A stretch of DNA of 64,000 nucleotides from the NCBI GenBank assembly GCA_017554335.1, contig JAFZIO010000042.1, positions 124,001 through 188,000 on the forward strand, read 5' to 3'. The notes under the pieces were generated by a model. It worked only from the letters and a program-made list of their open reading frames with translations, was not told the DNA's origin and searched no databases. Below are positions 7,816-12,595 of the stretch, piece after piece. Position numbers and translations under genes: made by a program. The first letter of the stretch is position 1; every line of letters begins with the position of its first letter. Source of the stretch: Bacteroidales bacterium (GTDB taxonomy: Bacteria > Bacteroidota > Bacteroidia > Bacteroidales > UBA932).

Positions 7816-10284
7816 TTAGCCAAAGTTCCATTTGAGTCCGAACAAAACATAGCGGCCCAACACCATCCGGTAGCTGTCTTCCGTGTAATTGGCCGTTATA
7901 GTTCTGGTGAGATTCGTGGTCTGGTTAAGGATGTCGTGGACTTTGAGGAACAGGTTGAAAGGGCCCAGTTTCTGGGACAATTCCGCATTCCATTGCCACT
8001 CGGGCGAACCATAACCTTCTTCGAAACCGTAGTAAAAAACATAGGTAAGGTCCGTGCTGAAATTCAGCCCTCGCTTGCCCAGATACGAAGTTCTGGCGGT
8101 CAGATGGGTTTCCTGGGTGCTCTGATTGGCGCCAGAATCCAGGGAGTAAAGGGCTACCCGGCCCACGGAAGATGCACCGACGCTGAATGAACAGCGGCCG
8201 GGATTGTATTTCAGGCTTATACCCGCCATTGGCGTAATAACCTGCGTACGGCTTTCCCGGAATCTGCTGCTGCCGCTGTAGAAGCGTTCTCCGTCCTTTC
8301 CGCCCCAGAAAGTGCTCATGAATAACGGATAATCGAAGGCCTCAATGTCCAGCCCCGCAAGTTCCGAGCCTGCCTGATAGGAAGTGAGAGCGGCATACTC
8401 GGCCGATCCGCTTACTGAGAAGGCCAAGAGGCCGTCTTTATCCAGAGCCGAAGAGTATCCGGAGGACAACGAAATATCCATGGCAGGCGCCCTGGAGTTC
8501 ACGGGAACCGAGTACTGGATGCCGTCTGCGTCATACCAGAGGGCGGAGCTGATGCTGTTGTAGTCCAGCTGGCCGGATAGTGAGACACTCACCATGGTAA
8601 GATCAGGTTTGTCATTCCGGGTCCAATTGGCATTGAGTGTCGTTGAACCGTAAGGCTTAAGGTATATGTTGCCCGTGCTGATACGCGAAGGGTCGGCGAC
8701 GTTGAGCACCGGAAGCATAAGTGACGGCGACGGCTCCCTGCTGTATCCCGAAACATCCACGGTTAGCCGGTCGATGGAAGTGCTGTGCTGGAAGCGCAGG
8801 CTTGGCGAGAAGAACCACATAAACTCTCCGGCGCCGGTTGTCTCTTCCACATCGAAGCTCCGGGTATAAGTCTCGTTCATGGTTCCGCTTACCCGCCCGC
8901 CGGCGGTCAGCCAGGTCTGCGGCCCGAATACATACTGGAAAGTGAGGTCAAAGACCTGGTTCAAGGTCTTGCTGCTGCTTGACGAACTGTAGTACTTGTT
9001 GTACCCTCCCCTGTCATAGGCGTGAATGTCCTCCGACGGTCGTGAGAAATCTATGCGTCCGGTGGCTGAAAGAGTGAGCTTCGGCCCCAGAGGCTCGGTA
9101 TAGCGGACGGCTCCCTCTATGCCGTACGAACTTGCACGTGTCTCGTTGCGCAGGAAGATATCCTCTTCCGCCGAACCCAGTTCCAATTGGGACTGCTCCT
9201 CAGAATTCGCTTCAGTCGATGAATAGAAAGCGCCGGCGCTGAAGCCCAGGGTACGTCCACTCCTGTCGCCCAGTTCGCGGATGGTAACATCTCCGCTCAG
9301 GCTCAAGTCGCCGGTGTTCTCCACTCCGGACTCGGAGCCTCTTGATTTATTGGTCACGGTGTTCTCCCGCTCCGTTACTGATGAACTCTCTTCGCTTTTG
9401 GAGACACTTTTAAAAACGTAAGACGGGCGTATATGGAACCAGACGCGTCCGTCTTCTTTCAGCAGTTCGGCTTCCGCGCTGGCGGAATTGACATAACGTT
9501 TCCCGCTTTTCCTGGCGTTGGTGGAGAACTCCCCGCCTTCTCCCCAGCTGACGCGGGCAGACTGTGTTTCGGTGTCGGTATCAATGTATTTGTAGTTTGC
9601 GCTTACGGAGGTCTCCACGTCTTTCAGTCGGGAGGTATTGACATTCAGCGCACACTGGGCCGCGGAAGATATGCCCCCATCCGGGGAGCCTGCCTCTTCT
9701 TCATCATCTGAGGCCTCTATTACTACGGCCATGTCTGAACTGTTGATGTTCTGAGAATTCATTACCAGTGTCAGCTGATCCTTGTCTGACCGCACGGACG
9801 CCAGCAAATTGCCGCCGTACAGGAATCTCCGGTCGTCGTGGCGTGTGACTCCGCCTTTCAGCTCCAGGAGTCCGGACCAGCCCTGCATAAACTCCGGCTT
9901 GAGCTCTATGTCCAGTTCCTTCTCCCGTTCGCCGTCCTGTATCCCTGAGGCCCTGGTCTGCTCGCTCTCGTTGTCTACTATCGTCACTTTTTCAACCATC
10001 CTGGCCGGCAAATTGAAAACCGCCGTACTCTGGTCGTCAAAGAAGAAGGGCCAGCCACCTATTTTGATGCAATCCAGTTCTTCGCCGTTGAAGCTGACCT
10101 TGCCGTCCTGGCTGACTTCCATCCCGGGCATATTCTTGAGGAGATCCTTCAGCGTGGCATTCTCTCCTACGCGAAACTGCACGGCCTCGAATTCCACCGG
10201 GCCGGAAAACAGATCCTGCGACCTGGCTGGGATACCGTGCCCGGACAGAATCAGAAGCAACAAAACAAGCAGACCGCGTTTCAT
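7816..10284 (-). CDS. TonB-dependent-receptor-like outer membrane beta-barrel protein
   Basis: An 822-residue exported protein with a cleavable signal peptide (ends near PARSQ). Residues ~40-130 resemble a plug domain ([19 protein letters not shown], then [13 protein letters not shown]). The rest is a long alternating beta-strand region rich in Tyr, Ser and acidic residues, ending in aromatic strand LFGLKWNFG. This architecture matches the Bacteroidetes family of outer membrane barrels related to TonB receptors. It lacks the carboxypeptidase-regulatory N-terminal domain that SusC-type receptors carry. No SusD partner is adjacent. Its ligand is unknown. It heads a leftward operon with obg and the PAP2 gene. 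Confidence 0.8.
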
Positions 10285-10331
10285 ATTTTGCCTTTCTGAA
10301 GTGCTAAGATAGTTAGTTTTTTATCCAATCG

Positions 10332-10554
10332 TGCAAGATTCCGGGAATGTTTGTATTTTTGTAATGAAAATGCATCTATTATGAAAGCGAAATATCTGGT
10401 AATCTACATCTTAGCCGGCGCGGCGTTCCTGGGCGTTTCGCTCTGGGTGTTCCTTTCCAACGGCAAGAGCTCAAAGGCTATACGCTACAAATACAAGCTG
10501 GGCGGCATCCTGCTCACTGCATGGTCTATGCTTACTTTCGCTTCCTGCGAGGGG
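10332..10554 (+). repeat. Left arm of long inverted repeat around the rSAM gene
   Basis: This arm covers the promoter and codons 1-58 of lipoprotein A. It is repeated in inverted orientation at 12365-12587. A 35-base stretch (10501-10535) is identical to the reverse complement of 12384-12418, and codons 32-58 differ at only 3 of 81 bases by my alignment. Upstream, TGCAAGATT and a -7 box are also shared at the same 22-base spacing. Similarity stops soon after the lipobox. Confidence 0.85.
10354..10361 (+). promoter_or_regulatory. -7 promoter box of lipoprotein A / rSAM unit
   Basis: TATTTTTG matches the Bacteroidetes sigma-ABfr -7 consensus TAnnTTTG. TGCAAGA begins 22 bases upstream (10332). 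The ATG at 10381 follows after 19 bases. Confidence 0.6.
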
Positions 10555-10947
10555 GGCAGACCGGTTGTGACATGCTATGAGCCGGCGGTCACCTGTTACG
10601 ACGTGGTGCAGGAGCAGGACCTCGTTGTGGTTGGCATCAAGGATAAAAGCGGTGATTTATTAAAGTGCGGAGACGCCATCGTCATCAAGGTAGAGTACCC
10701 CAGTTATGAGCGCTACCGCTACCGCCTCTCTACTGCCAGCACGTCGCCCAATGCCCCGGCACCTGTGGTTCTCCAGGAGAATGATTTCGAGGTTAAAGGC
10801 GCCCCCTGCGCTTTTGAGATGCTTGTCCGGGACACCGACTATACCGGAACCATCAAGCTCGTAGTTTACGGCCTCTATAATTCTGAGTCCGAAAAAGAGG
10901 CTGAAGCGGAATTGGCTGTCTTCACTTCATTCCACCTGACCAAATAA
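10381..10947 (+). CDS. rSAM-associated putative lipoprotein A
   Basis: A 188-residue protein. Residues 5-25 form a first transmembrane helix, followed by a basic linker (SSKAIRYKYK), a second hydrophobic segment (LLTAWSMLTFAS) and a lipobox-like cysteine at C56. A second cysteine (C65, in VTCYEP) is shared with the paralogue. The start at 10381 is chosen because both paralogues begin MKAKYL there. The first 68 residues match lipoprotein B (12023-12538) at 57 positions, while the C-terminal halves do not align. The stop overlaps the rSAM start (TAATG), so the two are translationally coupled. I recall a computational family called lipoprotein of the rSAM/lipoprotein system. Whether this protein is the enzyme's substrate is inference. 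Confidence 0.75.
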   Translation: MKAKYLVIYILAGAAFLGVSLWVFLSNGKSSKAIRYKYKLGGILLTAWSMLTFASCEGGRPVVTCYEPAVTCYDVVQEQDLVVVGIKDKSGDLLKCGDAIVIKVEYPSYERYRYRLSTASTSPNAPAPVVLQENDFEVKGAPCAFEMLVRDTDYTGTIKLVVYGLYNSESEKEAEAELAVFTSFHLTK

Positions 10948-11960
10948 TGTCTGTTCCCACAATAGGCAACATAGTATTCGAACTGACGGAAGCCTGCAAC
11001 CAGTGTTGCAGGTTCTGTTATAATTACTGGCGGGACGGCAGCACGCCGCTTCCTCCTCCCGACCCCAAGCTCGCCCGCAAGACGTTGCGGCGACTGCTCT
11101 CCCAGGCATCCGTGGGCACGATTTCGTTCTCCGGTGGCGAGCCAATGCTGCTGAAAAATATCCACGACCTCGCACTTGCCGCCCGGTTCAAGGGTACTCA
11201 CGTGAACGTGCTGACCAACGGAACCATGCTTACGGAAGATGCTCTCACGAACTTCGTCAGCCTTGGTGTAGGCGCGATTCAGATTCCGATACTGAGCGCC
11301 AATGCCGCCGTTCATGAGTATCTTACGCAACTCCCCGGCTCATGGGCCAAAGCCACCGACGCCCTCAGGCGTGTTGCCGCCGTAATGCCGACTGGCGCCT
11401 ATGCCGTACTGGTAATAACCGCCGTCAATGCCCCCGGCGTGCCGCAGACGCTGCAACTTATATACGATTCGGGCGTGAGGAACGTGATGGTAAACCGTTT
11501 CAACATCGGTGGGATGGGGCTTCGGAACTGCCGCGAGCTGGTGCTGAAGCCGGAGGTGCTCAAGCAGGCATTCGCCGACGTAGAGGCCTTCGCCGTAGCG
11601 CACCCCGACATGCACTTCGTCAGCGGAGTATGCACGCCCCTTTGCCTGCTGGACGTCAGTCCCTATCCGCACATCAAATTCACCTGGTGCAGCACCGACT
11701 TCAGCCGCAGGCCCGTAGCCGTCAGCTATAAAGGCGACGTACGTTTCTGCAACCATTCGCCCAAGGTAATAGGCAATATCTGGGAGCGCCCCATAGGGGA
11801 GATTCTTTCCGACCCGGAAACGGTCGCCCGTTACGCCGTGGTCCCTGAGAAATGTCGCGACTGCGCTCTTCTGAGCCGCTGCAACGGCGGCTGCCGCGCC
11901 GCCTCAGAGCAGGTCTACGGCAGCTTCGCCGAAGCTGATCCTATCTTGGAGCAGATTTAG
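10947..11960 (+). CDS. Radical SAM/SPASM enzyme of an rSAM/lipoprotein system
   Basis: A 337-residue radical SAM enzyme with cluster motif CX3CX2C (C17, C21, C24) and the SAM-binding GGE at 63-65. The C-terminal SPASM domain has all expected cysteines: C248, C268, and CX2CX5CX3C at C303, C306, C312 and C316, enough for two auxiliary Fe-S clusters. SPASM enzymes usually modify ribosomal peptides or protein side chains, so this is probably a maturase. It overlaps the stop of lipoprotein A and converges on its paralogue, lipoprotein B. No precursor peptide, peptidase or exporter gene is adjacent, which favours the lipoproteins as partners. The modification made is unknown. Confidence 0.88.
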   Translation: MSVPTIGNIVFELTEACNQCCRFCYNYWRDGSTPLPPPDPKLARKTLRRLLSQASVGTISFSGGEPMLLKNIHDLALAARFKGTHVNVLTNGTMLTEDALTNFVSLGVGAIQIPILSANAAVHEYLTQLPGSWAKATDALRRVAAVMPTGAYAVLVITAVNAPGVPQTLQLIYDSGVRNVMVNRFNIGGMGLRNCRELVLKPEVLKQAFADVEAFAVAHPDMHFVSGVCTPLCLLDVSPYPHIKFTWCSTDFSRRPVAVSYKGDVRFCNHSPKVIGNIWERPIGEILSDPETVARYAVVPEKCRDCALLSRCNGGCRAASEQVYGSFAEADPILEQI

Positions 11961-11965
11961 CCCTT

Positions 11966-11997
11966 GCTCAACGGTACATTCTCAGGCACCCTTGAGC
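11966..11997. terminator. Hairpin between convergent rSAM and lipoprotein B genes
   Basis: GCTCAACGGT and ACCCTTGAGC form an imperfect stem (8 of 10 pairs) between two converging genes. The right arm is the same sequence found in the hairpin at 62398-62431. No clear T-run follows, so terminator function is inferred from position. Confidence 0.5.
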
Positions 11998-12022
11998 GTT
12001 ATAAGTAGTCATATGCGGGGCA

Positions 12023-12538
12023 TCAGTTGATTGTGAAGGGGGTATAAACTTGATCCATTTCCATCTCCGAGCCGTCCTCTCCCTGAACAATACGAATGAA
12101 ATATAGTATCGCATCTCCCTTGAAGTCTCCTACGGAGAGGGTTATCTTGCAGTCATTTGTTCCGGCCACGCATTCAAACTCCTGCTCCTGAAGTGTCTCC
12201 CCAGGCTCCGCTTTATCATAAGGGGCAATCCGGCATTTGTATTTGCCGGCAAGATCGGTTACAAAGTGCACAAGCATAACATCCCCGTTAGTGAACGTAG
12301 TCTTGCCCTCGATATAGGCATATTCCGGCGGAACCGGATCATAACAGGTCACAAACGGCCCGGGGCCCTCGCAGGAAGCGAAGGTAAGCATAGACCATGC
12401 AGTGAGCAGGATGCCGCCAAGCTTGTATTTGTAGCGTATAGCCTTGGCGTTCTTGCCGTTGGAAAGCAACACCCAGAGCGAAACGCCCAGGAATGCTACG
12501 CCGACGACGATGTAGATTATCAGATATTTTGCTTTCAT
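12023..12538 (-). CDS. rSAM-associated putative lipoprotein B
   Basis: A 171-residue paralogue of lipoprotein A in the opposite orientation. It has the same architecture: transmembrane helix (residues 5-25), basic linker (residues 29-39), second hydrophobic segment, lipobox-like C56 (TFASCEG) and C65 in VTCYDP. The ATG at 12538 is used because it gives the conserved MKAKYL start; an alternative TTG lies two codons upstream. Residues 32-58 are identical to lipoprotein A. The region after residue 68 differs completely and is acidic (GEDGSEMEMDQ). It has its own promoter, a duplicate of that of lipoprotein A. It converges with the rSAM gene, so the single enzyme may serve two lipoproteins. Confidence 0.75.
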   Translation of the reverse strand: MKAKYLIIYIVVGVAFLGVSLWVLLSNGKNAKAIRYKYKLGGILLTAWSMLTFASCEGPGPFVTCYDPVPPEYAYIEGKTTFTNGDVMLVHFVTDLAGKYKCRIAPYDKAEPGETLQEQEFECVAGTNDCKITLSVGDFKGDAILYFIRIVQGEDGSEMEMDQVYTPFTIN

Positions 12539-12587
12539 AATCAACGACTTTACACTACATAAATACTATTATTCATAAAATCTTGCA
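12365..12587 (-). repeat. Right arm of long inverted repeat around the rSAM gene
   Basis: The inverted copy of 10332-10554, covering the promoter and codons 1-58 of lipoprotein B. The two arms enclose about 1.8 kb holding the rSAM gene and both variable lipoprotein C-termini. Near-identity of codons 32-58 beside total divergence downstream suggests gene conversion or recombination. Confidence 0.85.
12558..12565 (-). promoter_or_regulatory. -7 promoter box of lipoprotein B
   Basis: On the minus strand this reads TATTTATG, one mismatch from TAnnTTTG. TGCAAGA starts 22 bases upstream (12587), the same spacing as at lipoprotein A. Confidence 0.5.
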
Positions 12588-12595
12588 TGTTCGGT

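Follow-up and report, generated by a model that had tools for sequence, protein, structure and literature searches.

Within a 64,000-nucleotide stretch of a Bacteroidales bacterium genome (UBA932 lineage; assembly GCA_017554335.1, contig JAFZIO010000042.1, positions 124,001 to 188,000), referred to here as the window, a gene for a radical S-adenosylmethionine (SAM) enzyme with a SPASM domain (P0002) lies between the genes of two lipoproteins, P0001 and P0003. This arrangement raises the question of what such an enzyme might do to exported proteins, and at which residues. The initial annotation, made from the sequence alone, described an enzyme coupled through TAATG to one lipoprotein and converging on its paralogue. 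This layout was borne out: the three genes occupy positions 10381-12538, and the stop codon of P0001 and the start codon of P0002 have one base in common. As judged from the sequences of this locus and its relatives, the partner proteins consist of a membrane leader, then a C[YH] pair, and then one of several cargoes, and the radical SAM/SPASM enzyme travels with such proteins. We consider it probable that these genes encode a leader-directed protein-modifying system, in which the leader would bring exported proteins to the enzyme and the Cys-Tyr site would be modified before export.

The Cys-Tyr motif

Just past the lipobox is a Cys-Tyr pair that the initial annotation overlooked; P0001 has two copies of it (VTCYEPAVTCYD) and P0003 has one (VTCYDP). 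Across the enzyme family, which comprises 62 loci with scores of ≥300 (57 clusters at 95% identity and 25 at 70%), the open reading frame (ORF) directly upstream of the enzyme gene (≤150 bases) carries C[YH] behind a leader in 60 loci, with CY in 59 and CH in one. The two loci without an upstream partner are L133, which lies at a contig edge, and L057, which has a CY lipoprotein directly downstream. Shuffling of the proteins after residue 50 gave C[YH] in a mean of 10.5 of the 60 (maximum 22 over 2000 trials), compared with 60/60 observed. When one member per 70% cluster was taken, the pair was found in 23/23, compared with 3.5 in shuffles. Among the other lipobox ORFs, from all loci fetched by then and from the window, C[YH] occurs ≤25 residues past the lipobox Cys in 1 of 71, and this sole case is a family member with a shortened start (compare L138). 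A chance dipeptide is rejected both by the shuffles and by these 71 ORFs.

In a genus-level alignment of 35 rows, Cys65 and Tyr66 are each present in 97% of rows, compared with a mean of 74% for the leader and 37% for the cargo. The exception is L042 (minus strand), with its CY a few columns on. The lipobox Cys is lost but the CY pair is kept in two of the 35 aligned proteins. Many of the proposed substrates contain two CY pairs. Some substrates (L100, L101 and L218) were also seen to carry a second pair at the extreme C-terminus, as NTCYY or NTCYF.

Leader and cargo of the partner proteins

By eye, P0001 and P0003 have a common 56-residue leader composed of a helix, a basic linker, a second hydrophobic segment and the lipobox Cys56, in agreement with the common leader-like N-terminus that had been described for them. 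Two leader types occur in the family. Type A has a helix, GKSxxWIxxKMKxGG and a hydrophobic segment, and type B has an amphipathic start, KIxIG and a hydrophobic segment; K-x-x-x-G is found in nearly all rows of both types.

Leader-only models (A7 and A8), cut before the lipobox or before the CY pair, were applied to 20 genomes with the enzyme and 38 without it. Matches were obtained in 17/20 of the former versus 1/38 of the latter with A7, and in 16/20 versus 1/38 with A8. Because the models were trained largely on proteins from the 20 positive genomes, the matches there are to some extent built in; what is informative is their absence from the controls, together with the additional matches at dispersed places. 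Eleven distinct leader matches are distant from a family enzyme gene, and nine of these carry CY past the leader (G207:C13, two; G085:C102; G085:C326; G092:C169; G189:C81; G279:C1, two; G255:C1), compared with 0/2 of the control matches. Two matches on G279:C7, with scores and lengths equal to those on G279:C1, were not counted. Two wider models (A5 and A6), not independent of CY because part of the motif columns was built into them, led to a row of eight leader/CY proteins in L218 (G207:C13, 2350-4814, plus strand), 68-181 aa where the start is clear, on a different contig from that genome's enzyme gene, and also to further TonB_C proteins. The presence of CY leader proteins far from the enzyme gene suggests that a single enzyme could act in trans on several substrates.

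P0001 and P0003 share 42% identity overall. The initial annotation considered their C-termini unrelated, and indeed pairwise BLAST of the two tails gives only a weak match (E 0.009). A profile built from the tails of 38 other members, in contrast, matches both P0001 (E 8.5e-22) and P0003 (E 1.2e-12), with 0.055 as the best of 1000 shuffles, so the tails are diverged copies of one domain. The picture of simple paralogues carrying unrelated cargo was corrected in this respect. At the DNA level, P0003 shares 95% identity with its orthologue in L004 over the tail and 85% over the leader. The leader of P0003 is 92% identical to that of P0001, and the two leaders form the arms of a 261-nt inverted repeat (84%). 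Since the P0003 leader is nearer to that of P0001 than to that of its orthologue, while the tails are 95% identical, gene conversion between the leaders is suggested. It appears that the leaders in the window were homogenised in this way while the cargo diverged, as if leaders were exchanged as modules.

A conserved leader with variable cargo, the logic proposed earlier, is supported. The variability of the cargo is seen among the relatives, which carry TonB_C domains or are tiny peptides, and not in P0001 and P0003, whose cargo is homologous. Behind the same leader layout, the cargo is a beta-rich domain, a TonB_C domain, or no domain. The term beta-rich refers to immunoglobulin-like Pfam matches below cut-off in L100 and L130 and to the look of the sequence, and no fold is claimed. 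TonB_C cargo was identified in L134, L141, L142 and L143 (Pfam E 7e-16 or better). For the short proteins, namely L136 (107 aa) and the one L139 peptide scanned, no NCBIfam domain was found. In L139, five peptides of 75-81 aa are encoded in tandem, and their motif is TCH or SCH.

Domains and cysteines of the enzyme

P0002 matches Radical_SAM (E 5e-19) and SPASM (E 2e-5), both above the Pfam cut-offs, and its Pfam match starts at residue 12 with the radical SAM domain. The CX3CX2C motif (C17, C21, C24) is kept in all family loci. The canonical SPASM pattern has seven Cys, arranged as CX9-15GX4C, CX2CX5CX3C and C. P0002 has CX14GX4C and CX2CX5CX3C, that is, the first six, and the last, C-terminal Cys is absent; the complete SPASM set with which the enzyme had been credited is one residue short. 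A Cys after C316 is present in 13/62 family loci at varying positions, and near the canonical place in two of them (L063 and L064). Two additional upstream Cys are conserved, C229 in 61/62 loci and C233 in 62/62; C229 is found in 0/6 outgroup enzymes. The account of AhbD in PMC10452713 gives a Cys somewhat before the SPASM pattern as the proposed ligand of auxiliary cluster I (AuxI), as in SuiB, and the C-terminal Cys as the fourth ligand of auxiliary cluster II (AuxII). By analogy, C233 and the absent C-terminal Cys would map onto these ligand positions of AhbD and SuiB.

This cysteine content bears on an alternative chemistry, oxidation of the motif Cys to formylglycine as in anaerobic sulfatase-maturating enzymes (anSMEs), which we regard as improbable. 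Sulfatases are modified at CxPxR, and the motif here is not CxPxR; the need for an aromatic or His neighbour would be left unexplained, and the best NCBIfam matches of P0002 are GeoRSP and PqqE, far under their cut-offs. Consistent with formylglycine formation are the Cys as the most constant residue of the motif and the eight conserved Cys in the SPASM region of the enzyme, for which anSME, described with full Cys ligation of both auxiliary clusters, offers a comparison (PMC10452713).

Distribution and phylogeny of the enzyme family

A pattern scan of a genome collection (84,980 species) retrieved 42 relatives of P0002, 39 with 64-91% identity and three with 25-31%. The 39 nearer relatives are from records titled Bacteroidales or Bacteroidia, of which 17 name the rumen, omasum or reticulum. 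A profile of 19 enzymes (E 1e-40) had matches in 23/393 genomes of the order (among them the partial matches G130 and G360, outside the counts) and in 3/395 of the phylum sample, the window's genome being in both; the low scorers L144, L145 and L147 of this search were left out of the family. The set of 62 loci was obtained from 70 by dropping six outgroups and L070 and L071, whose enzymes are cut at contig ends and which both have a CY partner. The set includes the window itself (L003), and L006 and L011 in it repeat L036 and L054. From their equal or nearly equal lipoprotein scores, L004, L005, L007-L010 and L013 were judged to duplicate L033, L035, L039, L037, L040, L046 and L068 and were excluded. 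L015 equals L103. The enzyme family has no NCBIfam model.

In a quick tree of 50 enzymes, the members of TIGR04133, a known radical SAM family found beside lipoproteins, form one clade with a Shimodaira-Hasegawa-like approximate likelihood ratio (SH-aLRT) of 100, and the present family forms another with 84, which is moderate support from a quick search with long outgroup branches. All cargo types fall within the one enzyme clade. L133 was labelled beta by default in this tree, its partner being beyond the contig end.

Among 61 same-genus genomes, many of them incomplete, both the enzyme (E 1e-40) and the lipoprotein (E 1e-5) were found in 13, neither in 48 and one alone in none. Outside the genus, the enzyme was found in G085 and G092 and the partner was missed by the lipoprotein profile, though present on inspection. 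The possibility raised at the outset that relatives of the enzyme occur mostly without such lipoproteins does not describe these data, with an upstream partner in 60/62 loci and 0/61 genomes holding one gene alone. Of the outgroup enzymes, with outgroup scores of 130-208, L144, L145, L147 and L072 have no C[YH] in the upstream ORF, and no upstream ORF with C[YH] was found for L073 and L074. In L144 (3989-6544, minus strand), the gene of a more distant SPASM enzyme (173 bits) is immediately preceded by that of a 531-aa lipoprotein whose leader looks similar and which has no Cys-Tyr; this pair is possibly a third variant.

The joint presence and absence of enzyme and motif proteins in the sets searched also bears on the idea that Cys-Tyr is a structural or metal- or cofactor-binding motif and that the enzyme has another target, which could be the lipid anchor, the leader or some small molecule. 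Modification has so far been inferred from sequence, and the enzyme could be a cofactor maker that is co-transcribed incidentally. But the pair is kept on proteins of 68-107 aa as well as on TonB_C proteins, which would hardly have one structural need in common, and together with the joint occurrence this makes the idea unlikely.

Comparison with known systems

The initial annotation expected this locus to fit the TIGRFAM-type models for radical SAM/lipoprotein pairs, and the NCBIfam search did not support this. TIGR04133 (rSAM_w_lipo) is a hypothetical equivalog with a curated cut-off of 425 bits, and TIGR04134 (lipo_with_rSAM) has a cut-off of 39.8 bits. P0002 scores 48 bits against TIGR04133. 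P0001 and P0003 give no match to TIGR04134 at E up to 1, and the window's genome (G000) gives none at E 0.001. None of the 25 NCBIfam models listed for P0002, of 83 matched, reaches its own cut-off. The same genome has a separate gene that passes TIGR04133 (528 bits, G000:C7). Directly upstream of it is a gene for a 66-aa lipoprotein (ACYGPAP ... PEYGVP; L099, 4071-4268, minus strand) that no NCBIfam model matches at E 0.001. Thirteen TIGR04133 loci were examined (L087-L099; G000:C7 and 12 others, from 29 places over the cut-off), and xYG(x)P occurs in a protein within about 1.3 kb at 13/13, a raw count with no shuffle control. YG.P occurs in 1/60 proposed CY substrates (L067), within its cargo.

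The two systems are alike in that a SPASM enzyme lies beside signal-bearing lipoproteins in Bacteroidales, a short motif follows the lipobox, and the cargo varies too. They differ in that the present enzymes form a separate clade, the motif is CY[DE] instead of xYG(x)P, and the proteins at TIGR04133 loci have, by eye, a short ordinary signal peptide where the present family has a helix-linker-helix leader. Membership of P0002 in the TIGR04133 system, with action on TIGR04134-type lipoproteins, is therefore extremely unlikely: the same layout, the same order and the weak profile match would agree with it, but the score lies far below the cut-off, the lipoproteins do not match TIGR04134, TIGR04133 has its own clade, the motifs differ, and both systems coexist in the window's genome. 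Filing the locus under TIGR04133/TIGR04134 was rejected on score, tree and motif.

Several proteins near TIGR04133 genes are not TIGR04134-like in look, and the TIGR04133 system may also have variable cargo. The xYG(x)P motif beside TIGR04133 resembles the XYG splice site given for the PlpXY spliceases in PMC10533398. In L226 (3080-3994, plus strand), a protein of 305 aa that Pfam does not match at E 0.01 combines a type A leader with LYGP, as if leader and motif of both systems were mixed.

Spliceases offer a further comparison, as they would share with the present family a radical SAM modification, proposed here, at a short Tyr-containing motif; these enzymes are described as acting at MYG and LYG (PMC10533398). 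An enzyme that, like PlpXY at XYG, excises tyramine at the motif and leaves a keto-beta-amino acid would be in line with such radical SAM peptide chemistry at Tyr (PMC10533398). The present motif has no XYG: the residue after CY is Asp or Glu at 81/89 sites and Gly at 0/89, Tyr is replaced by His in L139, and it is at the TIGR04133 loci that xYG is found. The absence of Gly after Tyr and the His variant disfavour the splicease reading, which we regard as very improbable.

GeoRSP (TIGR04303) is the best NCBIfam match over most of the P0002 length, at 89.4 bits versus a cut-off of 400 (97-98 bits for L100 and L101). Among sactipeptide and ranthipeptide maturases, P0002 has a sequence match to SkfB (E 7e-9), and AlbA, CteB and SkfB are presented in PMC8326336 as SPASM or twitch enzymes in which the sulfur comes from a Cys of the substrate. 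Their substrates are small peptides; those proposed here are lipoproteins and TonB-like proteins destined for export. Pfam gives no recognition domain for P0002, and a thioether is a proposal only. No description of the enzyme family or of the CY motif was recognised in searches of open-access literature, a scope that most subscription papers fall outside. The main text of a study that mined Bacteroidales for clusters of ribosomally synthesized and post-translationally modified peptides does not contain the words lipoprotein and TonB (PMC10352776). The present family would be a new variety of radical SAM/lipoprotein system, set apart by its own target motif and by a leader that is portable.

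Proposed mechanism

In the leader-directed system that we propose, the enzyme would bind the leader or linker in the cytoplasm, generate a 5'-deoxyadenosyl radical and modify the Cys-Tyr site; Sec export and lipidation would follow. The reacting residue would probably be the constant one, Cys, which could for example donate the sulfur for a thioether with a neighbouring residue. The constancy of Cys together with the Tyr/His alternative favours chemistry at Cys with an aromatic or His neighbour, and a cysteine-centred reaction is the favoured one. A single enzyme may act on several substrates, whether encoded next to it or dispersed, and the residue that it modifies would end up just outside the membrane, between anchor and cargo.

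Several points weigh against this proposal. Chemical modification of the Cys-Tyr proteins is something that we infer. Pfam reports no N-terminal recognition domain in P0002, and the moderate clade support, the two partial enzyme matches and the training of the leader models given above count here as well. The five tandem peptides of L139 have Cys-His in place of Cys-Tyr. Among the dispersed leader proteins, the CY protein of G092:C169 has a broken frame, the protein of G612:C105 (L226) has LYGP and no CY, and the CY protein of G085:C326 may have its own partner in another, more distantly related SPASM enzyme (112 bits) encoded about 5 kb away. A leader match without CY on G000:C73 is probably due to chance. 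Sharing of the motif is expected from common descent; the changes of cargo argue against simple whole-protein inheritance.

We suggest only tentatively that a new radical SAM family installs a Cys-Tyr or Cys-His linkage, or another Cys-centred modification, in folded exported envelope proteins. The portable leader would be an address tag, and one enzyme would act on structurally unrelated cargo, including TonB-type energy transducers, encoded adjacent to it or elsewhere in the genome. As speculation, the modification could serve in attachment, crosslinking or redox sensing at the envelope; such a role would fit because the site lies between anchor and cargo and is common to TonB-like and lipoprotein cargo.

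Locus layout and neighbouring genes

The features of the locus are given in Table 1. Scanning for promoters and terminators gave nothing above chance. The neighbouring genes vary among the eight near loci viewed, with obg, murF and dut, recognised by eye, recurring in some. Since the neighbours differ, the conserved unit is the lipoprotein together with the enzyme, and a conserved wider gene cluster was rejected. Upstream of the cassette, a divergent gene in the window (7816-10284, minus strand) encodes an 822-aa protein with a signal-like start. A protein with the same length and start adjoins the cassette in L033, and none was seen in the seven other loci viewed.

Table 1. Positions of the genes, motifs and repeat of the cassette in the window.
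Feature	Coordinates	Strand	Basis
P0001, lipoprotein, proposed substrate 1, 188 aa	10381..10947	+	matches family tail profile, E 8.5e-22
P0002, radical SAM/SPASM enzyme, 337 aa	10947..11960	+	Pfam PF04055, PF13186
P0003, lipoprotein, proposed substrate 2, 171 aa, convergent on P0002	12023..12538	-	family tail profile
P0001 leader: hydrophobic helix, GKSSKAIRYKYKLGG linker, second hydrophobic segment to lipobox Cys	10381..10545	+	found by leader-only model A7 (itself a row in A7)
P0001 first Cys-Tyr codons (VTCYEP), proposed modification site	10573..10578	+	C65 and Y66 invariant in 36-row alignment A2
P0001 second Cys-Tyr codons (VTCYDV)	10594..10599	+	sequence
P0002 CX3CX2C, SAM-binding cluster (C17, C21, C24)	10995..11018	+	62/62 family members
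P0002 SPASM region, conserved C229, C233, C248, C268, C303, C306, C312, C316	11631..11894	+	seventh canonical Cys absent
P0003 leader	12374..12538	-	leader-only models; closer to P0001 leader than to orthologue's
P0003 Cys-Tyr codons (VTCYDP)	12341..12346	-	alignment
261-nt inverted repeat (84%), left arm = P0001 5' flank and leader	10325..10585; right arm 12334-12594	.	sequence comparison

Significance

Small peptides are the best-known targets of protein modification by radical SAM enzymes. The substrates proposed here are anchored in the membrane and have ordinary domains; the same logic would extend to them, and they would combine a separable leader with a predicted site of two residues. 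The label of a radical SAM/lipoprotein system with unknown chemistry is thereby turned into something directly testable, with one peptide, one residue pair and natural substrates of <110 residues. With CY in this family and xYG(x)P at the TIGR04133 loci, Bacteroidales seem to have two or more parallel systems that mark envelope proteins, each in its own way.

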